Below, in pieces: positions 36,586-49,537 of a stretch of DNA of 64,000 nt. Below the pieces are notes generated by a model. That model had not been told where the DNA came from, searched no databases, and saw only the letters and a program-made list of their open reading frames with translations. A program made the position numbers and the translations under genes. The DNA comes from Sulfurimonas autotrophica DSM 16294. Lineage in GTDB: Bacteria > Campylobacterota > Campylobacteria > Campylobacterales > Sulfurimonadaceae. How positions within the stretch are numbered: position 1 is the first letter of the stretch; each line of letters opens with the position of its first letter. The DNA is taken from assembly GCF_000147355.1 (NCBI RefSeq), contig NC_014506.1:1240001-1304000 (forward strand). Reading direction: 5' to 3'.

Positions 36586-38544
36586 TTATTCCATTTCCAA
36601 ACTCATGAGAAACATATCTTCTCCGTCAATTACTTGTACATCTATAGATTCACAATTTTGACAACAATAGTCTATTTTTTCGAGCTCACTGATATTTCCG
36701 CAATTATTACATTCAATCGTCAAAGGTTGTATATTCACAATCAATTCAGCTCCATCACAAACTGTTTTTTCCTTAAAAGTGTTAAATGCTATCTCAAGTA
36801 AGTGTGATTCTACGCCACTCATAAGTCCAATTTTTACAACAATTTTGCGAACCTTTGTAGCTTCATTCTCTGCTGCTATTGTTTCAATTTGTTCCAGTAA
36901 GGCTTGAACAACACTATACTCATGCATTTTGACTCCTTTTAGTCTCTCGGGTGTTTTTGTCGGACATATTTTATATACAAACTCATGACGCAATTTATGA
37001 AATGCACTCTCTTGATTCCAAAACTCAGGGTACATAGTTTCAAGTTCCTGTTTTTTGCAAGATTCCATAAAATCCTTGTCCATCTCAAGTTGTTCCTGCT
37101 TTTTCCAAATAAAATCTTCACTATATAAAGAAGCTGTAAAATCATGCAAATTCTTATAATAGCTATTTTCTGAAAAAACTTCATCTACCATAGCTATTTT
37201 TTTTGCATAATTAACAGATATCGGTAAAGCATCATTTAAAAGTTGTTTAGCCATTTCTTGTCCAACTCTTTTTGGTAAAGTATAGGTATGATATTCACTT
37301 CCGCTTAATCCCAGTGTTTTATAGTGTGGATTCAAAACTACACTCTCTTTTGCAACGACATAATCACATGCCAAAGCAAGAAATACACCACCTGCCCCTG
37401 CATTTTGAGCTAAAGATGCCACTGTTGCAACTTCATCCGCTTCTAAAATTGACTTTATCAAGTCATTCATAGCATTAATATTACTCCAACCGTCTTCACC
37501 CTGTTTTTTTGAATCTTCCAGAATATTAAGGTGAATACCATTAGAAAAAAAATCTAAACCGCCACAAAGTACAATAACTTCACTTTCTTCTTTTAAATAT
37601 TCAAAAGCATACTTTAACCGCATACATTGCTCCGAACTCATTGCTCCGTTATGAAAATTGAAATTCAGATACGTCACTTTCCCTTTTTGTTCTACACTTA
37701 TTTCATAAAAAGTATTATATGATTTATCAAAAATCAAAGGTATTCTTAACTCTTTTATGCCTGCTATTTTTTCTTTTAAAACATATGTTGCCGGCAGTTT
37801 AAAACGATGCGGTTCTTTTAAATGGCTAATCCAGACAGCTCCATCTTTTGTACCTATACATACGGCACCATCTCGTTTAGCAAGTATTTCTTTAAGATTT
37901 CCTCGCAATTTATCTTCTTTATGAACACCATACAGGTAGCATCGCACTCCACAAAGTTCATCAAGAACACCGGGAAAACTATCACTAAGGTTAATCTTAT
38001 CTATAATTATGGATGTAGAGTCTTCCTGCCAGTTAATTGTTCGCATTACCGTAGTATATTTTTTATGAATAGGATTTAATAATTGTAGTATCTGCACTGG
38101 TTTAGACAAAAAAATTTCAAGAGCTTTAAGAGATGCAGATACCACTTCTTGACGATATAATGAAGCTTTATAAGTTTCTCGAACGCTAAAATCAGAGTAG
38201 GCTACAATATCTCCTCCATCATACAAAGCATTTGCCCGAAGAAGCACAACACCCCACTCTTTTGTATGACTTTTCAATGCATATTCCAAAGAATTTGGTC
38301 CCCTATCCCCAATGGGACCCGGATGAAAAATATATGTTGAATATCTTTTATAAATTTCTTCAGGTATAAAAGCTTTTAAATAAGGTGCTAAAATCAACTC
38401 AGGTTCAAATTCCAAAACCTCTTGAATCATCTGCTCTCTATGAATGCCAAATACTACATTCAATTTATGCCCGTCATCTTTTAACCTTGTATATACAGCC
38501 TGAGATAATGAATTAAACGCAGTTACAAGGAGTAAAATTTTCAT
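36586..38544 (-). CDS. hypX-hypA: HypX-HypA fusion: CO-ligand synthase joined to nickel chaperone
   Basis: 652 residues in one frame. Residues 1-about 270 are a formyl-THF transferase-like domain (YIFHPGPIGDRGPNSLEYAL, H74). Residues about 285-500 are an enoyl-CoA-hydratase-like domain (DGWSNINAMNDL, AQNAGAGGVFLALACDYVVA). Together these form HypX/HoxX, which makes the CO ligand of [NiFe] hydrogenase from formyl-THF. Residue 540 begins a complete HypA: MHEYSVVQALLEQIE with the Ni-binding His/Glu, and Zn cysteine pairs CNNC and CQNC. Just before codon 540 lies AAGGAG, four bases from ATG 36927, so free HypA (113 residues, 36586-36927) may also be made. Last gene of the locus. Confidence 0.88.
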   Translation of the reverse strand: MKILLLVTAFNSLSQAVYTRLKDDGHKLNVVFGIHREQMIQEVLEFEPELILAPYLKAFIPEEIYKRYSTYIFHPGPIGDRGPNSLEYALKSHTKEWGVVLLRANALYDGGDIVAYSDFSVRETYKASLYRQEVVSASLKALEIFLSKPVQILQLLNPIHKKYTTVMRTINWQEDSTSIIIDKINLSDSFPGVLDELCGVRCYLYGVHKEDKLRGNLKEILAKRDGAVCIGTKDGAVWISHLKEPHRFKLPATYVLKEKIAGIKELRIPLIFDKSYNTFYEISVEQKGKVTYLNFNFHNGAMSSEQCMRLKYAFEYLKEESEVIVLCGGLDFFSNGIHLNILEDSKKQGEDGWSNINAMNDLIKSILEADEVATVASLAQNAGAGGVFLALACDYVVAKESVVLNPHYKTLGLSGSEYHTYTLPKRVGQEMAKQLLNDALPISVNYAKKIAMVDEVFSENSYYKNLHDFTASLYSEDFIWKKQEQLEMDKDFMESCKKQELETMYPEFWNQESAFHKLRHEFVYKICPTKTPERLKGVKMHEYSVVQALLEQIETIAAENEATKVRKIVVKIGLMSGVESHLLEIAFNTFKEKTVCDGAELIVNIQPLTIECNNCGNISELEKIDYCCQNCESIDVQVIDGEDMFLMSLEME

Positions 38545-38550
38545 ATAAAC

Positions 38551-39549
38551 CTAGCAAATTCTCGGTAACAATTCACCTGTCGGTGTATCTAAAAATCTTT
38601 TTGTACCATAAGAGCTTAATAAAACTACTTTACCGGTATACATATCACTTACATTAGCAATTTTTACTGCATTATTTGAATTTTCAAATTCATGTAATAC
38701 ATTGAGGGCTTTGTCTTCATCCTCTTTTTTTATCGCTAAAACAAAAGTTCCTTCATTTGCAAGATTTACCGCTTCAAAACCGAGCATTTCACAAATGCCC
38801 CTAACTTCTTCTGATACAGGGAGAGCATCTTCTTGGACCTCTATACATATTTTTGATTGTTTAGCCCATTCGTTAAGTACGGCACTGACACCGCCTCTTG
38901 TAGCATCACGCAATGCAGTAATATTTACCCCAGCTTCTATAAGAGCCTGCACTTGATGTGTCAGCGAAGCACAATCACTCTTTAGCTCTGATGTCAGTTC
39001 GATGCCTTCACGTGCTGCAAAAATAGTAGCACCGTGACGACCTACATCCCGGCTGACCAAGATGACATCATCTTTGCTGATATTGTTTGAACTTATATCT
39101 TTTTTTTTAATTTCTCCAATACCGGTAGTATTTATAAAAATTTTATCGACACTGCCACGAGGAACTACCTTGGTATCTCCGCCTACAACAACAGCACCAT
39201 TATCTTCAAGCTCTTTTTTCATACTGCGAACAATTTTTTCAAGTTCTCTAGTAGAAAACCCTTCTTCTATAATAACGCTACATGTAAGGTACTTCGGTTG
39301 TGCACCCATCATGGCCAAATCATTGCATGTACCGCAAATAGCAAGTTTTCCTATGTCTCCACCGGGGAAAAATAGAGGACTTACAGTAAAACTGTCTGTG
39401 CTAAATGCGAGCTTTCCGTTATGTATAACGGCTGCATCTTCGCTTTTTTCTAAAATTTCATTTTTAAAAGCTTTATAAAAAATTTTGGTAATAAGTTCAT
39501 TATTCTCTTCTCCACCGTTTCCCATAGCTAAAGTTACTTGTTTATTCAT
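38551..39549 (-). CDS. hypE: Hydrogenase maturation protein HypE
   Basis: 332 residues of the PurM-like fold. HypE turns a carbamoylated C-terminal Cys into thiocyanate, giving the cyanide ligands of the active-site iron. The N-terminus has MGNGGEENNELI, the ATP-binding stretch has AFSTDSFTVSPLFFPGGDIGKLAICGTCNDLAMMGA, and the essential C-terminal PRIC is intact. Its ATG overlaps the hypD stop by 4 nt. Partners HypF, HypC and HypD are encoded upstream in the same direction. Confidence 0.97.
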   Translation of the reverse strand: MNKQVTLAMGNGGEENNELITKIFYKAFKNEILEKSEDAAVIHNGKLAFSTDSFTVSPLFFPGGDIGKLAICGTCNDLAMMGAQPKYLTCSVIIEEGFSTRELEKIVRSMKKELEDNGAVVVGGDTKVVPRGSVDKIFINTTGIGEIKKKDISSNNISKDDVILVSRDVGRHGATIFAAREGIELTSELKSDCASLTHQVQALIEAGVNITALRDATRGGVSAVLNEWAKQSKICIEVQEDALPVSEEVRGICEMLGFEAVNLANEGTFVLAIKKEDEDKALNVLHEFENSNNAVKIANVSDMYTGKVVLLSSYGTKRFLDTPTGELLPRIC

Positions 39550-40691
39550 AATAAATTCCCATATTTATAATAAGCAGCACAGGCACCTTCACTACTTACC
39601 ATACATGAACCAAGCGGAGTTGATGGTTTACATGCTGTACCAAAAATTGTACACTCATGCGGTTTTGCCATTCCGCGCAAGATATCACCACATATACAAA
39701 GCTTATGATCTTCTATCTCTTCACGCGGTAAAATATCTGCATATATCTTTTCAGCATCTATTTCAGAGAACTCAAAACGAAGTTTGTACCCACTGTCAGG
39801 CACATTACCAAGTCCACGCCACTTAAAGAGTGAGGCTTTTTCAAAGTATTTCCCTATCAATGCCTGTGCTTTTAAGTTTCCATCATGTGAAACAAGTCGT
39901 TTATATTCAACTTCTAATTCACATCTGCCCTCATTAAACTGGCAAACAATCATAAGAATAGCTTCCATAATATCCACAGGTTCAAAACCGGCAACAACTA
40001 CTGGCCGATGATACTCTTTTGGAAATTTTTCATAAATTTTACTTCCGGTAATAACACTTACATGTGATGGACCCAAAAAAGCATCAATTGCGTTATTATA
40101 ACTGTCTACATGTTCATCTCTACTATCAATAAGTTCAACCATCACTTCGGGTACTGTTACATGATTAATATGAAAAAATATATTTTTAATACCGCGTTTT
40201 AAAACAATATCTATAAAAGATGTTGTCATAGGTGTAGTAGTTTCAAATCCTATTGCAAAAAATATTATTTTTTTATCCGGATTTTCCTCTGCAATTTTAA
40301 GAGTATCTAATGGTGAGTAAACAAAACGAACATCAGCACCTTTAGCTCTGGCATCCTGTAAGCTTCCTTTACTGCCTGGGACTTTAATCATATCTCCCAG
40401 TGTTACAAGTATTGTATCCTCTTGTTGGGCCAAAATATATGCATGATCAATTCTCTCTTTTGGCATAATACAAACAGGACATCCAGGGCCATGTATAAAG
40501 TTAATATTTTGTGGTAATAGCTGAAGAAGACCAAATTTCATAATGGAGTGAGTGTGACCTCCGCAAACTTCCATGATATTTATAGGACGAGGCAGTTGTT
40601 TGGCCTCTGTATTAATGAGTTTTGCAAAACCTTGGATTACTTCTGGATTACGAAACCCCTCATATAAGTCTTTTAGCTGTAATTCATTCAT
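39546..40691 (-). CDS. hypD: Hydrogenase maturation protein HypD
   Basis: 381 residues; the [4Fe-4S] scaffold on which Fe(CN)2CO is built with HypC. Conserved stretches: IMEVCGGHTHSIMKFGL, NINFIHGPGCPVCIMPK (Cys pair), FFAIGFETTTPMTT, FFHINHVTVPEVM and the C-terminal cysteines in LCICGDILRGMAKPHECTIFGTACKPSTPLGSCMVSSEGACAAYY. All cluster and thiol residues seem present. Its ATG shares one base with the hypC stop (TAATG). Confidence 0.97.
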   Translation of the reverse strand: MNELQLKDLYEGFRNPEVIQGFAKLINTEAKQLPRPINIMEVCGGHTHSIMKFGLLQLLPQNINFIHGPGCPVCIMPKERIDHAYILAQQEDTILVTLGDMIKVPGSKGSLQDARAKGADVRFVYSPLDTLKIAEENPDKKIIFFAIGFETTTPMTTSFIDIVLKRGIKNIFFHINHVTVPEVMVELIDSRDEHVDSYNNAIDAFLGPSHVSVITGSKIYEKFPKEYHRPVVVAGFEPVDIMEAILMIVCQFNEGRCELEVEYKRLVSHDGNLKAQALIGKYFEKASLFKWRGLGNVPDSGYKLRFEFSEIDAEKIYADILPREEIEDHKLCICGDILRGMAKPHECTIFGTACKPSTPLGSCMVSSEGACAAYYKYGNLL

Positions 40692-40960
40692 TATGCACCT
40701 CTATTTGAGCAAATATCATCCTCTTCTTCATTAAGTTTTTCAAGAATTTCATTATATACTTTTAGAGACTCTAGAGCATCTTCTTCATCGATCTTGTTCA
40801 TAATAAATCCGATATGAAGTAAGACATAATCACCGATCTCAACAGCACCCTCTTCCATAAGTTCCAAACCAGCTTCACGCTTTACGCCCATTGTATCAAC
40901 AATTGCAATATTTCTCTCTAAATCCAGTTCCACCACTTTGCTCGGTATAGAAAGACACAT
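40691..40960 (-). CDS. hypC: Hydrogenase maturation chaperone HypC
   Basis: 89 residues from ATG 40960, chosen because HypC must start MCLSIPSKV: the exposed Cys2 carries the iron ligand complex. AGGAG lies nine bases upstream. Other family features are VDTMGVKREAGLEL and GDYVLLHIGFIMNKIDEEDA. It delivers the Fe(CN)2CO group from HypD to the large subunit precursor. It starts 5 bp after hypB. Confidence 0.96.
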   Translation of the reverse strand: MCLSIPSKVVELDLERNIAIVDTMGVKREAGLELMEEGAVEIGDYVLLHIGFIMNKIDEEDALESLKVYNEILEKLNEEEDDICSNRGA

Positions 40961-40965
40961 TTTGC

Positions 40966-41748
40966 CTAACTCCTCATCTTTCTTTTGAATTCTATCCAAT
41001 CAATAACTTGTTGGATTGAACTTTTATCTTTGATGTTTATTTCAAGTATATCTACGCCCGGTTTTATTTTACGAGCCTCTTTTTTCTCATGTTTTAAATC
41101 ATAATCAAAATATGGAAGTAAATCTGTCTTTGTTATCAAAACTAAGTCGGCCTGACGAAACATTACCGGGTACTTTTCTATCTTATCACTTCCTTCAGGG
41201 ACAGAAACCAGTACTATATTTAAATGACTGCCAACATCGTAACTTGCAGGGCATACAAGGTTGCCTACATTTTCAATGAAACATACATCGATCTCATCCA
41301 AAGGCATATCATGTAGACCTTTGTGCACCATAAATGCATCTAAATGGCACGCCGAACCCGTCTGTATTTGGTATGCGGGAATTCCCTTAGATTTAATTCT
41401 GTCTGCATCCCTGGAAGTTTCCAAATCTCCTTCAATAACACCAAATTTAAAACCTGCCATCTCTGCCATATTTTCCAAAAGTGTTGTCTTGCCGCTGCCA
41501 GGACTACTCATAAGGTTAATACTCAAAACATTATGATTGTCCAAATGTGCACGATTATGTACTGCTTCTTGATTATTCTTGTCCAATATTTTTGTAATCA
41601 CATTTATTGTTTTTGTATCATTTAACTGAGGATTATGATGCAGCGTTTCATGTGCTGCCTGATGTTGATGAGAATGATGATGTTCATGGTCGTGATGATC
41701 AGTTCCTAAAGTTGTTCCTGCTATACTGCATCCACAATCTGCACACAT
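40966..41748 (-). CDS. hypB: Nickel-inserting GTPase HypB
   Basis: 260 residues. The N-terminal MCADCGC motif is the high-affinity Ni site of the CxxCGC type. A His-rich stretch (11 His between residues 18 and 38) probably stores nickel. The G domain shows the P-loop SSPGSGKTTLLE (residues 81-92), GDLETSRDADRI, the metal residues in TGSACHLDAFMVH, and ITKTDLLPYF. It acts with HypA to load Ni into the large subunit. It lies just behind the nickel transporter gene. Confidence 0.96.
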   Translation of the reverse strand: MCADCGCSIAGTTLGTDHHDHEHHHSHQHQAAHETLHHNPQLNDTKTINVITKILDKNNQEAVHNRAHLDNHNVLSINLMSSPGSGKTTLLENMAEMAGFKFGVIEGDLETSRDADRIKSKGIPAYQIQTGSACHLDAFMVHKGLHDMPLDEIDVCFIENVGNLVCPASYDVGSHLNIVLVSVPEGSDKIEKYPVMFRQADLVLITKTDLLPYFDYDLKHEKKEARKIKPGVDILEINIKDKSSIQQVIDWIEFKRKMRS

Positions 41749-42518: not shown

Positions 42519-44789
42519 TCATTGGCTATTTTTTAGTGCATAATATGCTTGTCCAAGAGAAATACTCCCATCATTAACCGGTGTACTCTCTTGAATATAG
42601 CATTTAATGTTCAATTCTTCAAATTTCTCTTTGATTTTTGCAACTAACACCTTGTTCTGAAATACTCCACCACACAGTACAACAGGCAAATGTGGATATT
42701 TACCAGAGATATTAACGACAATATCACACAATGTGTTTAAAAATTTTGCAGCTATTTTCACAGATGATTCTTCTTCTAAAATCTCATATACCATCTCTTT
42801 ATAGCTTATTATATTATTATCTATGATATATGTATAGTTTTTTTTAGAAGCAGACTGTTTTGCCATTCTTTCAATAATAAGACCACTCTCACCCTCATAA
42901 CCCAAATCATCAATATTGCCACTCAGTGCATAAACACCGTCAAAGAGCCTTCCAACTGATGAACTTTGTGGCGAATTTATCTTTCGTTGATACATTGTAT
43001 GAAGTGTTTTAATCTCGGAGATAGAGAAACTTTTTACCAAAGGATATTGCATTACAAGTATTTCTTGAAGAGAAAAACACTCAAAAAGTAAAGACAAGCC
43101 AACTCTCCTTGGTTCTCGTACTGCTTTTTCGCTGCCTAAAAGGTATATATTTTGCAGATGATAAACTCTCTCATACTTTTGAGGTGAAGCTATGAGCATT
43201 TCTCCACCCCATAGCGTTGCATCATCCCCATAGCCTGTTCCATCAAAACAAAATGCCAATACTTCTTCATCTAAAGAGTACTCTGCCATGGTTGCCAATG
43301 CATGTGCATAATGATGTTGTAACTCTACGAGTTCAATATCTGCGTGAGATGATATATACTCTTTTGCCCATGCAGTTGTTTCATATCTTGGATGTTTATC
43401 ACAAACTATTATGTCCGGTTCAAAGTTGTAAAATTTCTTAAAAGTATCTAAAGTTTTTTCAAAATATTCAAATGCTTCTAACGAGTTTAAATCACCTACA
43501 TGTGGCGATAAAATCATATTATTGTCAAAGACAAGTGTCATAGTGTTTTTTTGGTTTGCACCCACTGCAAGAATCTTTTTTTTGCAATTAGCCTCTGTAA
43601 AGAAGCTTTTTGGTCCAAATCCTCTGGCAAGTCGTAAAAAAAGTGTTTTCTCGTCCACACTCATAACTACACTATCATCGCATGCATTTATTATCTCTCT
43701 GTCATGCGTGAGTATATTCTCTACAATAAAAGAGAGTTTTTTTACAATCTCTTTTTCATCAGTAACAATAGGCTCATCGCTCACATTTGCACTTGTAGCG
43801 ACTATTGGTGTTTTTAATATTGTCAGTAAAAGTTCATGTAGTGGCGTATAAGGGAGAAACACACCTATCCTGTCTATATTTGGGGCAATTGAATCAGCTA
43901 AAAAAGTAGTATCTTTTTTCTCAACCACTACAATGGGTCTCTCGCGTGAGAGAATAAGTTCTTCATCTTTTTTGGAGAGTTTTGCCACTTTTTTAATCTC
44001 TTTAATTGACAAAAACATTACAGCCAAAGGTTTTGTAGGTCTATGTTTATTTTTTCGCAACTGCTTTACTGCTGACTCATTTGTAGCATCACATACAATA
44101 TGAAAACCACCTAAACCTTTAAGTGCAATACTTTTTCCATTTTGAATCAATTGAGCACACTGCTCTATAGGGTTTGTATCATTAACGGTATCACTGTCTA
44201 TGTTTTTAATTACTAATCGGGGACCACATTTATAACAGCTAATGGGTTGGGCATGGTATCTTCTGCTAAAAGGATTTTCAAACTCTGCTCTACACTCATC
44301 ACACATTTCAAATTGTGCCATTGAAGTATTTATTCTATCATAAGGAAGCGTTTTTGTAATTGTATATCTTGGTCCACAGTTGGTGCAATTTATAAACGGG
44401 TATTTATATCTTCTATTATTTTTGTCATTCATCTCCAAGAGACACTCATCACACAGTGAAACATCAGGAGAGACGAGTGTAGTAACACTGCTGTTCTTTG
44501 ATTTTACTATTTCAAATTCTATCTCATTTTTACAAGAAAGTATTTTTACATTGAGTTGTTCTATCCTACTCAGAGGTGGAGCGGAATTTTGTAACGCATC
44601 TACAAAAGCGTCTAAAGCAACCTTGTCACCTTCAATCTCTACAATAACACCTGAACCATCATTGTAAACGCAGCCTGCAAGCTTATCCTTTTGTGCCAAT
44701 TGATAAACAAAAGGCCTAAATCCCACACCCTGGACAATACCAAAAATGGTAAGTTGCAACCTTGTTTTAGATATAAACTCTACTGACAA
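42519..44789 (-). CDS. hypF: Carbamoyltransferase HypF
   Basis: 756 residues. Domains in order: acylphosphatase (FGIVQGVGFRPFVYQLA), two Zn-finger motifs (CDECLLEMNDKNNRRYKYPFINCTNCGPRY; CDECRAEFENPFSRRYHAQPISCYKCGPR), a YrdC-like nucleotide-binding domain (ALKGLGGFHIVCDA) and a Kae1-like carbamoyltransferase domain (ELQHHYAHALATMAEY, CFDGTGYGDD, VVLCGGVFQN). It uses carbamoyl phosphate and ATP to carbamoylate HypE. The start codon is TTG at 44789: AAGGAG lies seven bases upstream and no ATG fits the acylphosphatase N-terminus. Confidence 0.96.
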   Translation of the reverse strand: MSVEFISKTRLQLTIFGIVQGVGFRPFVYQLAQKDKLAGCVYNDGSGVIVEIEGDKVALDAFVDALQNSAPPLSRIEQLNVKILSCKNEIEFEIVKSKNSSVTTLVSPDVSLCDECLLEMNDKNNRRYKYPFINCTNCGPRYTITKTLPYDRINTSMAQFEMCDECRAEFENPFSRRYHAQPISCYKCGPRLVIKNIDSDTVNDTNPIEQCAQLIQNGKSIALKGLGGFHIVCDATNESAVKQLRKNKHRPTKPLAVMFLSIKEIKKVAKLSKKDEELILSRERPIVVVEKKDTTFLADSIAPNIDRIGVFLPYTPLHELLLTILKTPIVATSANVSDEPIVTDEKEIVKKLSFIVENILTHDREIINACDDSVVMSVDEKTLFLRLARGFGPKSFFTEANCKKKILAVGANQKNTMTLVFDNNMILSPHVGDLNSLEAFEYFEKTLDTFKKFYNFEPDIIVCDKHPRYETTAWAKEYISSHADIELVELQHHYAHALATMAEYSLDEEVLAFCFDGTGYGDDATLWGGEMLIASPQKYERVYHLQNIYLLGSEKAVREPRRVGLSLLFECFSLQEILVMQYPLVKSFSISEIKTLHTMYQRKINSPQSSSVGRLFDGVYALSGNIDDLGYEGESGLIIERMAKQSASKKNYTYIIDNNIISYKEMVYEILEEESSVKIAAKFLNTLCDIVVNISGKYPHLPVVLCGGVFQNKVLVAKIKEKFEELNIKCYIQESTPVNDGSISLGQAYYALKNSQ

Positions 44790-44917: not shown

Positions 44918-45442
44918 TCATAATCTCAACTCATCAATTATTTCAGCTAATAAAACATTATCTTTTTTCACAACTTCAATACCTAAAATTTCTACCTCTT
45001 TTAGAAGTGTTTGTATAAGTAAATCAAACTTTCTATGTAAAACTTCACTAAGCCCTATTCCAATAGAGTTAATGTCTTGAGGTATTATGCCAAAGAGTGT
45101 TATATTTGCTCTTTTACCATGTAATTCACATATCTCTAGCATCTCTACTACCTCAACTTCGTGAGCTGTATTTTTATATCTACTGCTATTAAGTAGTTCA
45201 TCTGACGGAATTTTATATATCTCTCCTGCTTTGTCATCTATAGAGATTGTATCAACTATAAAAACATTATCATAATTTAAAAAATATTCTGCAAGATTAA
45301 AGCCAAGTGTACCACCATCAAGAAGTTCTAATTTTTGTTTAAACTCGTAATTTTTTCTAAGGTAATTTATAGCTATGACACCTATCCCATCATCACAAAA
45401 AAGTAAATTTCCTATCCCTATGACTATGTTTTTATTTTGCAT
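44918..45442 (-). CDS. [NiFe] hydrogenase maturation endopeptidase (HyaD/HupD family)
   Basis: 174 residues of the M52 family. The N-terminus IVIGIGNLLFCDDGIGVIAI carries the acidic metal ligand in GNxLxxDDGxG, and FIVDTISIDDKAGEIY and the His-containing TAHEVEVVEML region follow. It cleaves the C-terminal tail of the large subunit after Ni insertion; here the tail would be 16 residues. It overlaps the large-subunit gene by 19 nt. A 128-bp gap follows, with a doubtful 36-codon frame. Confidence 0.93.
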   Translation of the reverse strand: MQNKNIVIGIGNLLFCDDGIGVIAINYLRKNYEFKQKLELLDGGTLGFNLAEYFLNYDNVFIVDTISIDDKAGEIYKIPSDELLNSSRYKNTAHEVEVVEMLEICELHGKRANITLFGIIPQDINSIGIGLSEVLHRKFDLLIQTLLKEVEILGIEVVKKDNVLLAEIIDELRL

Positions 45443-47121
45443 CTGCTTAACTCTTTACCATCTGCATCTATAACATGAACCGCACATGCCAAGCATGGAT
45501 CAAAAGAGTGCAAAACTCTTAAAACTTCCAAAGGTTTTGAAGTGTCTTCTATCTTTAAGCCAACCAGAGCCTCCTCATATGCACCTCTGAGTCCGTCAAA
45601 ATTTCTAGGTGTTGCATTCCATGTTGTTGGTGCTATTACTGAAAAGTTTTCAATACGAGCATTTTTTATATTTATAAAATGAGATAGAACACCGCGAGGC
45701 ACTTCAAAAAATGCTCTCCCTTTTGCCTCTTTTTCTAAAGAGTTAAAATCAAATTTTACCCATGTATCCGTATCATAGTATTTTATATTTTGTATCAGGC
45801 GAGAGACAAGCTTAAAGATATACTCACATATATAGTTCGTTTCTATTGCCCTTGCTGCATTTCTACCAACAGTAGTAGATAAATCCATCAGCTCCAAATC
45901 TGTCTCTTTTAAAAACTCATCTACAAAAGATTTTATAAGAGTGTTATCTTTAGTATAGCTAATTAGCACCCTTGCGAGTGGTCCACTCTCCATAGTTTTT
46001 CCGTTGTATCTTGGAGCTTTTACCCATGAATATTTATCACTATTCTTTGCAGTTTTTAAAGAACCATCTTCATTTAGGTCTGTGTAGTGCACTTCATCAT
46101 ACCCCAGGGTACCTTCTCTCACATTGCCATTCATTTTGTCTTTATACCAAGCACGGTCAACCTCTTCTGTTATTTTAGTCTCATCAAAATCTTCTATTGT
46201 TTCAAAATCATGATTATAAATAACACCATCACAAAAGAGTTTTCGCTCCCCCTCAAATTCATAACCACCAACAGATAAAAAGTTACCATTGGCACGACCA
46301 ATTCCAGCTTTTACCTCATCTCTATAAGCGATAGACAACAGCTTTGCATCTGGGAGGTAGGCACGTTCTATAAAATCTTTCGCCTCTTTGATGATAAAAA
46401 GATAATCATTTAACCGTTGAGGATTTAACATGTCAGCGACACTTGTTACACCACCAACTACTATGCTTTGCGGATGTGGGGTTTTACCACCAAAAATAGC
46501 TACGGCTTTACTTATATTTGTTTGAAATTTAAGAGCCTCTAAATAGTGAGAAATCATAATGAGATTTTGTTCAGGAGTTAGTTTATAATCCACATGACCC
46601 CAGTAGCCGTTTGAAAATGGACCAAGTTTTCCAGCCTTTACAAAGTTACCTAATTTCTCCAGCACTGCTTCATAATGAGAGTGCGAGTTCCTAAAAGGTT
46701 TTTGCGTGTACTTATGAGCCTCTTTAGAAGTTGCTTTTGGGTCTGCCTTTAAAGCAGTTGTTACATCTACAAAATCCAAAGAGTGAAGATGATAAAAGTG
46801 CACAACATGATCTTGAATAAAAAGTGCCATAGCCATCAAATCTCTGATAATCTCAGCATTTTTAGGAAGTTTTAAAGAGTAAGCATCCTCCACACTTGTA
46901 ACAGCGGCACGAAAATGAGAGTTTGTGCAAACACCACATATACGCCCTGCCAAAAGTCCGGCATCACGAGGGTCTCGCCCTTTTAGTATCATCTCTATGC
47001 CACGAAAAAGCTGTCCACTGACATATGCATCTTTTACAACGCCATCTTCATCCACCTCAATTTCAGCCCGTAGATGCCCTTCAATCCTTGTAATAGGGTC
47101 AATAACAATTTTTTTAGTCAT
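45424..47121 (-). CDS. [NiFe] hydrogenase large subunit, cytosolic group-2-like
   Basis: 565 residues from ATG 47121 (MTKKIVIDPITRIEGHLRAE), which overlaps the small-subunit stop by 8 nt. Both Ni-binding motifs are intact: RICGVCTNSH (C62, C65) and DPCLACAVH (C543, C546, H549). The precursor tail after H549 is 16 residues long, the substrate of the next gene's protease. There is no membrane anchor, and the partner lacks a Tat signal, so the enzyme is cytosolic. These traits point to group 2; the subgroup needs a tree. Confidence 0.95.
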   Translation of the reverse strand: MTKKIVIDPITRIEGHLRAEIEVDEDGVVKDAYVSGQLFRGIEMILKGRDPRDAGLLAGRICGVCTNSHFRAAVTSVEDAYSLKLPKNAEIIRDLMAMALFIQDHVVHFYHLHSLDFVDVTTALKADPKATSKEAHKYTQKPFRNSHSHYEAVLEKLGNFVKAGKLGPFSNGYWGHVDYKLTPEQNLIMISHYLEALKFQTNISKAVAIFGGKTPHPQSIVVGGVTSVADMLNPQRLNDYLFIIKEAKDFIERAYLPDAKLLSIAYRDEVKAGIGRANGNFLSVGGYEFEGERKLFCDGVIYNHDFETIEDFDETKITEEVDRAWYKDKMNGNVREGTLGYDEVHYTDLNEDGSLKTAKNSDKYSWVKAPRYNGKTMESGPLARVLISYTKDNTLIKSFVDEFLKETDLELMDLSTTVGRNAARAIETNYICEYIFKLVSRLIQNIKYYDTDTWVKFDFNSLEKEAKGRAFFEVPRGVLSHFINIKNARIENFSVIAPTTWNATPRNFDGLRGAYEEALVGLKIEDTSKPLEVLRVLHSFDPCLACAVHVIDADGKELSRCKIKT

Positions 47122-49537
47122 TATTTTCTTCTTCAACATATTTCCTCTCATTTGCAAACTTATCTACAAAACCTCTCTCTACACATCCCATACATCCATG
47201 TCCGGCTTGAACAGGCCAACTTGTAGAGCTGTTAAACTTCATAGTTGGACAATTAACATTTGTATATGGACCTTTACATCCCATCTCAAAAAGGCAATAT
47301 CCTTTTTTAGCACCTGCATCTCCCCACTCTTGCACAAATTCACCTAGCTCATAGTGCCCGCGTCTTTCGCAATTATCATGAACTCTTCCTTTATAAGCCC
47401 ATAAAGGTCGATTAAATTCATCAAGGGCAGGTAACTCTTCAAACATGATATATGAGAGTAATGTTCCTACAATATTTGTTGGATTTGTTGGACACCCCGG
47501 TATATTTATAACATCCTCTCTCTTTAGTGCCTGAGCTACTCCAACTGCTCCAGTTGGATTTGGAGAGGCCGCTACTACACCGCCGTCAAACGCACAACTT
47601 CCAACTGCGATAACAAGAGCTGCATCATTTGCACATTTTTGAAGTAACTCTATACCGGTTTCTCCTTTTGGACCTACTCTTAGAAATTTTCCATCCATTG
47701 CCATAGGAACCGCACCCTCTACTATCAAAATATATTCACCCTTTTGATTTGTGATAATATCTTCTAAAATAGTCTCGCTTTGATTTCCACTAGCACTCAT
47801 TAAAAGTTCATGATAATCAAGCGAAATATAATCAAATATCAAATCTTCAATCGCCGGATTTGCCGACTTTATAAATGCTTCAGAATTTCCGCTACAATCC
47901 GCTAACTCAAGCCAAACTATTGGAACTTTGTTTAAAGACTTAACACCTTTTTCAACCACTTCTTCAAAATTTGGATGAAGCTGCATAGAGGCTGTAACCA
48001 TTGAAATCCAACTATTTATCTCATGTTTTGCAATATCTAAGGACTCCATTGCCGAATCAAGGTTATCTGCTGTAAGAGAATTTCTTGGATGAATCACATT
48101 AAACTTATCTAGGCGTTTTTGAATCTCTCTTATCTCTTTTTCTCTTTTAATATCCTCTGGAGTTTTTCTCGGCATATTTGGATCTATGAGATGTTGAGAA
48201 TCTTTTATGACATTCTTCACCATCATTTTACATCTGCCACAAACTCTACCAGCATTTGAGAAATCACTTAGTTCTCCAAATGAAGAAATTCCAGTCCGAG
48301 TGACAATATCTACCAAATCTTGATAGTAAACATGCTCACAACTACAAATAAGCCGGCCTCTCTCACCTATAAGTCTGTTTTGATAAAGATAGTTAATATC
48401 TACCTTATCCGCGATCTCTATTAAATTTTCTATATAGCCAACATCCACATTGGAGTTTATCCCTATAAATCTTGTAAGTTTATCTTCACGTATAAAGTAT
48501 TCATCTATTCGGTTATCCTTTTTTGAGGTGATAAGCACCTTCTCGTAATCACTACTCGATTTTGGCGAATGGACTTCAACTAAGTCAAACTCACCAACTT
48601 TTAACATGTCAATACTGACTTCAAGTTTAAACTCTTTTATATCTGTTTGCAAAATGTGAGATATGGCACAATCTGCCTCGCTCGTACACTCTTTGACATG
48701 TCCGGCTATAAAGTGTAACTCTTCAACTTCTGCACACTCTCCAACAGCGTAAATATCCTCATCCTCTGTTTGCATATAAAGGTTGGTTAAGATTCCTTTG
48801 TTGCATCTCAAAGTCTCTCTAAAAATCTCAATATTTGGTTTTATACCTATAGCAAAAATTAAAAAAGGATTTTTGATTTGAAGTTTTTTAGTTTTAAGAA
48901 GTGTTATTTCTTGATTATTTACTTCATGTTCAACTATCTCATCTTCGTAAGATATTCTAACTTTTCCACTCTTTGTGCAACACTCTTGGATCATTTTTAT
49001 GGAGTCAATAGATAGGTGCTTGCTGTAAAGATGAGTAGAGCGTAAAAGTAGTGTTATATTTTTTACATGTGGCATCTCGTCTAAAGTCTCAAGAAGTTCA
49101 AGTCCTAAAGGACCGCCCCCTACTATAACAATCTCTCTATTTTCAACACCATTTTTAATAAGTTCAGAATCTTCAACACTTCTAAATACAGTCGCATTTT
49201 TAATGCCCTCTATATCAAAGAGTGTAATGGGTTTAGAGCCAGTAGCAATAATGAGTTTGTCATAACTAAACATTGAGTCGTCTGAGAAAACTTTCTTTTT
49301 TGATTTGTCTATTTTGTTGATTTTTTGATTTAGTTCAAGTTTTACAGTAGGGTCAAGATCCAAAGATATTGTATCACTATCTTCTGAGCCATCAACTAAA
49401 CGACAGAGATGTATCCTGTCATAAGGAACATATTTTTCATCGCTAAGTATCATTACTTCTAAAGCAGAATTTTGTTTTTTCAGGTTATTTGCTAAATATA
49501 CTGCAGCTATACCACCACCGACAATCACTACTCTCAT
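47114..49537 (-). CDS. NirB-like FAD/BFD flavoprotein fused to [NiFe] hydrogenase small subunit
   Basis: 807 residues. Residues 1-about 390 form a two-dinucleotide-binding flavoprotein like the NirB/rubredoxin-reductase family: VVIVGGGIAAVYLA (FAD), VIVGGGPLGLELLE (about 137-150, NAD(P)), DIYAVGECAE. Residues about 394-445 are a BFD-type [2Fe-2S] domain with C398, C400, C433 and C436. After a helical linker, about 535-800 is a hydrogenase small subunit. Proximal cluster ligands are C548, N551 (CSGN instead of CxxC), C648 and C682. Distal: H720, C723, C748, C754. Medial [3Fe-4S]: C763, C782, C785, with P775 at the fourth position. No Tat signal. Electrons could pass from H2 to FAD and on to NAD(P)+ or another acceptor. 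Confidence 0.9.
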   Translation of the reverse strand: MRVVIVGGGIAAVYLANNLKKQNSALEVMILSDEKYVPYDRIHLCRLVDGSEDSDTISLDLDPTVKLELNQKINKIDKSKKKVFSDDSMFSYDKLIIATGSKPITLFDIEGIKNATVFRSVEDSELIKNGVENREIVIVGGGPLGLELLETLDEMPHVKNITLLLRSTHLYSKHLSIDSIKMIQECCTKSGKVRISYEDEIVEHEVNNQEITLLKTKKLQIKNPFLIFAIGIKPNIEIFRETLRCNKGILTNLYMQTEDEDIYAVGECAEVEELHFIAGHVKECTSEADCAISHILQTDIKEFKLEVSIDMLKVGEFDLVEVHSPKSSSDYEKVLITSKKDNRIDEYFIREDKLTRFIGINSNVDVGYIENLIEIADKVDINYLYQNRLIGERGRLICSCEHVYYQDLVDIVTRTGISSFGELSDFSNAGRVCGRCKMMVKNVIKDSQHLIDPNMPRKTPEDIKREKEIREIQKRLDKFNVIHPRNSLTADNLDSAMESLDIAKHEINSWISMVTASMQLHPNFEEVVEKGVKSLNKVPIVWLELADCSGNSEAFIKSANPAIEDLIFDYISLDYHELLMSASGNQSETILEDIITNQKGEYILIVEGAVPMAMDGKFLRVGPKGETGIELLQKCANDAALVIAVGSCAFDGGVVAASPNPTGAVGVAQALKREDVINIPGCPTNPTNIVGTLLSYIMFEELPALDEFNRPLWAYKGRVHDNCERRGHYELGEFVQEWGDAGAKKGYCLFEMGCKGPYTNVNCPTMKFNSSTSWPVQAGHGCMGCVERGFVDKFANERKYVEEENND

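Follow-up and report, generated by a model that had tools for sequence, protein, structure and literature searches.

How two hydrogenase maturation genes, hypX and hypA, came to be read as one frame in the deep-sea sulfur bacterium Sulfurimonas autotrophica OK10 (DSM 16294), and what such a frame can still produce, is the question raised by this locus. The answer requires the extent of the frame, the start signals that remain inside it, the arrangement of both genes in related genomes, and the chemistry of the HypA N-terminus.

The merged frame and its genomic setting

Within the window, that is, the whole stretch of 64,000 nt analyzed here, a single open reading frame on the minus strand (36586..38544) runs for 652 aa without an internal stop, corresponding to a predicted mass of 74.2 kDa. 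Its HypX part comprises residues 1-539 (36928..38544, minus strand), as delimited by Pfam and by alignment to PDB 6j0p, and its HypA part comprises residues 540-652 plus the stop (36586..36927, minus strand), as delimited by Pfam and motif alignment. A Pfam search with the merged protein places Formyl_trans_C (PF02911) at residues 167-256 and ECH_1 (PF00378) at residues 298-485, both above cut-off; PF00551 scores below cut-off on the HypX part. The HypA domain is complete, with positions 1-112 of the 112 in profile PF01155 matched at residues 540-651 and a score of 98.7 bits against a curated cut-off of 28.9. Scored within the fusion, HypA falls slightly under the cut-off of TIGR00100 (84.3 versus 88.1). 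The closest solved structures are Aquifex aeolicus HypX for residues 1-535, where the 6j0p alignment covers both domains (E 2.8e-128), and Helicobacter pylori HypA for residues 539-651. A predicted model of the fusion reached a mean pLDDT of 69.7, with values below 50 around residues 492-544; its poor quality probably reflects fragmentary alignment of the HypX tails and of HypA.

These results agree with a first-pass annotation of the locus, which had HypX ending near residue 539 and a full HypA starting at residue 540 with no stop between them: the 652-codon frame and the Pfam matches concur. The internal ATG lies at 36927, as had been proposed, and the expected products of 74 kDa and 12-13 kDa compare well with predicted masses of 74.2 kDa for the fusion and 12.66 kDa for free HypA.

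The merged gene is the last of a complete hyd-hyp cluster encoded on the same (minus) strand. The order is a flavin-fused hydrogenase small subunit (47114..49537), the [NiFe]-hydrogenase large subunit (45424..47157; the sole PF00374 match in the genome), a maturation protease of the HycI family (44918..45442), hypF (42519..44789), hypB (40966..41748), hypC (40691..40999; its listed start is the first TTG, and translation probably begins at a more internal position), hypD (39546..40691), hypE with its AIRS domains as the upstream neighbor (38551..39549), and hypX-hypA. The protein at 47114..49537 is a single polypeptide of 807 aa in which pyridine-nucleotide flavoprotein and BFD [2Fe-2S] domains precede the small subunit. 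It is found at full length in about 40 other Sulfurimonas genomes at 65-85% identity, and the flavin-fused hydrogenase represents a conserved, unusual, apparently cytoplasmic type.

Start signals of hypA

The Shine-Dalgarno sequence of hypA, AAGGAG (36933..36938, minus strand), lies within the last hypX codons. It is followed by the spacer TCAAA (36928..36932, minus strand), which in the six nearest relatives aligned has one base more. The first-pass annotation had recognized the same AAGGAG at four bases from the internal ATG; the motif stands, and the distance is 5 nt. For the start at 36927, the duplex energy of pairing is -8.4 kcal/mol, assuming that OK10 carries the common bacterial 16S tail. 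Within the window, 51 gene starts have a median of -3.0 and 445 in-frame internal ATGs a median of -1.5. Equally strong pairing occurs at 4 of these 445 internal ATGs, and the hypA Shine-Dalgarno ranks among the strongest in the window. Pairing at the hypA start site exceeds chance. RNA folding around the junction is unremarkable compared with shuffled sequences (z 0.8).

A strong internal start site for hypA, as suggested from AAGGAG and the ATG at 36927, is therefore upheld by this duplex energy. Its presentation as a new internal ribosome binding site is not, because this is the ordinary site of hypA. In the survey of adjacent pairs, the hypA Shine-Dalgarno occupies the same place in relatives, either within hypX or at its end.

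Junctions in related genomes

A HypX scan of genome contigs yielded 80 loci, in 61 of which hypA follows hypX. The comparison of junctions that had been proposed for the locus gave a uniform outcome: in all 61 adjacent pairs the genes are separate, and none is fused. The hypX stop is a TGA inside ATGCATGA, the first codons of hypA, in 33 of the 61 pairs, giving an overlap of 8 nt; the remaining stops precede the hypA ATG, either immediately or by some tens of bases. The codons ATG CAT GAR always hold a TGA in the -1 frame. In these 33 pairs (for example, L001:3838-3845 and L002:5619-5626), the end of hypX is thus tied to codons of the invariant HypA nickel motif. Another arrangement is seen in L050, L068, L069, G080, G106, and G056, where hypX and hypA share a frame and a stop codon directly precedes the hypA ATG; one stop change, or readthrough, would join the two genes there.

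A wider search of the genus covered 135 genomes, about 100 HypA copies, and every HypA match. Among full-length HypA proteins, OK10 (G000) is the only one in a long frame (open frame 654, against 199 for the second longest). No comparable long frame was found for full-length HypA among the best phylum matches listed, nor among the rows listed for a sample of Pseudomonadota. Two further candidates, G050 (open frame 710) and G113 (open frame 733), were rejected on reading, as stops separate hypX from hypA in both. Viral contigs searched for the junction sequence gave no match, and the literature searched yielded no HypX-HypA fusion. HypX/HypA remnants with many stops occur at G108:C71:82918-84866 and on contigs C2, C5, and C23 of G073; the G073 remnants are present in repeated copies, and the remnants look like decayed duplicates.

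Origin of the merged frame

As assembled, the OK10 junction reads CTAAAAGGAGTCAAAATGCATGAG. Alignment with the six nearest HypX relatives reveals a sole gap in about 120 aligned bases, namely one base missing between GGAG and ATG. This gap moves the hypX frame, which is now continuous with hypA. In ATGCATGAG, the TGA that serves as hypX stop in 33 of the 61 relatives is retained out of frame (36920..36922, minus strand). The earlier explanation, loss of the hypX stop, is thus correct in that hypX is read into hypA and incorrect as to the lesion: the stop codon is not mutated, a base is missing from the spacer, and the TGA survives. The alignment suggests that the OK10 lineage lost one base between the hypA Shine-Dalgarno and the ATG, a deletion that would have taken hypX out of the frame terminated by the TGA and placed it in that of hypA.

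We infer the polarity of this change from the longer spacer shared by all six nearest relatives, the deletion itself being read from one assembly of one strain. The nearest relatives of OK10 HypX are 74-76% identical to it; at this distance the event is not datable, nor is it polarized beyond parsimony. Judged by glycyl-tRNA synthetase, OK10 is closest, among genomes with a long match, to G128, G011, and G094 (91-92%), yet their HypX proteins are only 59-61% identical to that of OK10 and belong to a different clade. OK10 hypX thus tracks the genome phylogeny only loosely, probably owing to transfer or differential loss of hyp genes within the genus, and for the same reason the deletion has no close relative against which it could be dated.

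A lone case against 61 separate junctions raises the alternative of a sequencing or assembly error, in which the true spacer is one base longer and hypX stops at the TGA in ATGCATGA, as it does in relatives. The gap lies between two short A runs (CTAAAAGGAGTCAAAATG), where pyrosequencing errs most. However, the runs are just 4 long, and the OK10 genome was assembled from 3.7x Sanger, 121.7x 454, and 30x Illumina coverage and polished to a stated error rate of less than 1 in 100,000 (PMC3035374). An error within this 20-nt stretch would then have a probability of about 2 in 10,000, uncorrected for selection of the finding. The first-pass annotation had named a lone assembly error, in a setting where relatives always keep the genes separate, as the outcome that would overturn the fusion; the genes are indeed separate, but the finishing quality makes the error unlikely (PMC3035374), and we infer that the sequence at the junction is correct. 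A -1 ribosomal shift near the junction is a much less plausible alternative still. It would return some ribosomes to the old TGA, which persists in the -1 frame (AAT GCA TGA), and so release HypX of near-ancestral length. Yet the junction contains no canonical in-frame slippery heptamer (CTA AAA GGA GTC AAA ATG) and no stable RNA structure, and programmed frameshifting was rejected for want of a slippery site.

Products of the locus and their functions

Sequence evidence favors, with reasonable confidence, the interpretation that the lost spacer base gave rise to a HypX-HypA fusion together with free HypA that serves nickel delivery, the fused HypA domain being a passenger. Most likely, both the 74.2 kDa fusion and the 12.66 kDa HypA are made. 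Ribosomes finishing hypX would read on to give the 74 kDa HypX-HypA, and ribosomes starting at the retained hypA Shine-Dalgarno and ATG would give an ordinary HypA of 12.7 kDa. Nickel delivery would then fall to free HypA, and the HypX part would keep working with HypA as a C-terminal passenger.

Both parts appear well preserved. In the 6j0p alignment, the residues matching A. aeolicus His74, Asp80, Asp109, Tyr416, and Glu426, the proposed catalytic set (PMC6802093), are all retained. At 0.31, the OK10 HypX branch is not notably longer than those of the related L005, L003, and L006 (0.23-0.28) and hence gives no sign of decay. The HypX/HoxX role, formation of CO from formyl-THF, is predicted for OK10 HypX. 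On the HypA side, alignment finds the MHE nickel motif and the two CxxC zinc motifs intact; residue 40 is Glu, versus Asp in H. pylori, and is Glu also in most relatives shown. The OK10 genome holds one copy only of HypA (PF01155).

The N-terminus of HypA distinguishes the two products. In H. pylori, the Met1 amine of HypA ligates nickel (PMC5557546; reviewed in PMC7055735), and the L2* variant, with a Leu inserted after Met1, shows 14% hydrogenase activity versus 12% in a hypA mutant (PMC5557546). At the OK10 locus, a free Met1 amine occurs only in the product started at 36927, where start signals are present and initiation is predicted from them. Fused HypA, devoid of this amine, should not form the native nickel site, and by analogy with H. 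pylori it is unlikely to act as a working nickel chaperone.

These considerations bear on two other functional interpretations. The first-pass annotation had proposed that the fusion couples CO-ligand synthesis to nickel delivery, which would make it an adaptive tether within a single polypeptide. HypX and HypA belong to the same pathway and both domains are intact, but they act at different steps and with different partners, HypCD in one case and the large subunit with HypB in the other (PMC12134894). The fusion is also absent from all relatives read, and in fused HypA the nickel-ligating Met1 amine is not free. As L2* is nearly equivalent to a hypA null (PMC5557546), fused HypA is unlikely to deliver nickel; the coupling claim is unsupported, the least supported of the functional interpretations, and we regard such tethering as highly improbable. 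A second interpretation starts from the phenotype of OK10, which does not use H2 and in which hydrogenase activity was not detected (PMC3035374), a phenotype that, as Han and Perner (2015) point out in a review, does not match its hydrogenase genes (PMC4584964). Impairment of HypA, HypX, or both by the fusion could be one reason for this lack of activity despite a hydrogenase operon. The merged frame holds the sole HypA of OK10, a Met1 block equals a null in H. pylori (PMC5557546), and in HypX the C-terminal tail lies next to the CoA site (PMC6802093). Against this stand the excellent hypA start site, from which free HypA should be made, and the intact state of hypX, hypA, and the other hyp genes, where decay is not seen. 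Moreover, the flavin-fused type is the one PF00374 hydrogenase of OK10, and a strain limited to it, without a periplasmic type, might for that reason alone fail to grow on H2. No periplasmic-type small subunit was found for OK10 among the matches listed; a second small subunit of this type is present in many relatives. Impairment by the fusion is therefore doubtful, and it is similarly improbable that the missing base lowers hydrogenase maturation enough to be a cause, or part-cause, of the failure of OK10 to oxidize H2.

Comparison with known systems and implications

The production of a fusion beside free HypA can be set against several described systems. OK10 HypX resembles HypX/HoxX of A. 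aeolicus (6J0P) in both domains and in the proposed catalytic residues, and differs in that it lacks its own stop and continues into HypA. With HypA (TIGR00100/PF01155; H. pylori 6g81/2kdx), the OK10 copy shares the complete domain, the MHE motif, and two CxxC motifs; when translation begins at hypX, its N-terminus is not free, and it is the only copy in a long frame among those examined. Overlapping operon gene pairs, which are probably translationally coupled, are represented by the relatives themselves, where hypX and hypA overlap by 8 nt and the hypA Shine-Dalgarno lies inside hypX. In OK10, by contrast, one missing base has turned this arrangement into an in-frame fusion. LysC beta of Bacillus subtilis and Campylobacter jejuni (PMC11955535) is likewise a C-terminal domain with its own start inside a long frame; the OK10 case differs in that the short product corresponds to a formerly separate gene of unrelated fold.

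The locus thus offers a clear natural case of two overlapping operon genes fused by a change of one base, in which the second protein is not necessarily lost. That second protein is HypA, whose N-terminus is chemically required in the hydrogenase maturation pathway. For the type species of Sulfurimonas, the merged frame may be regarded as a concrete, testable suspect for the published mismatch, in which hydrogenase genes are present and H2 is not used.
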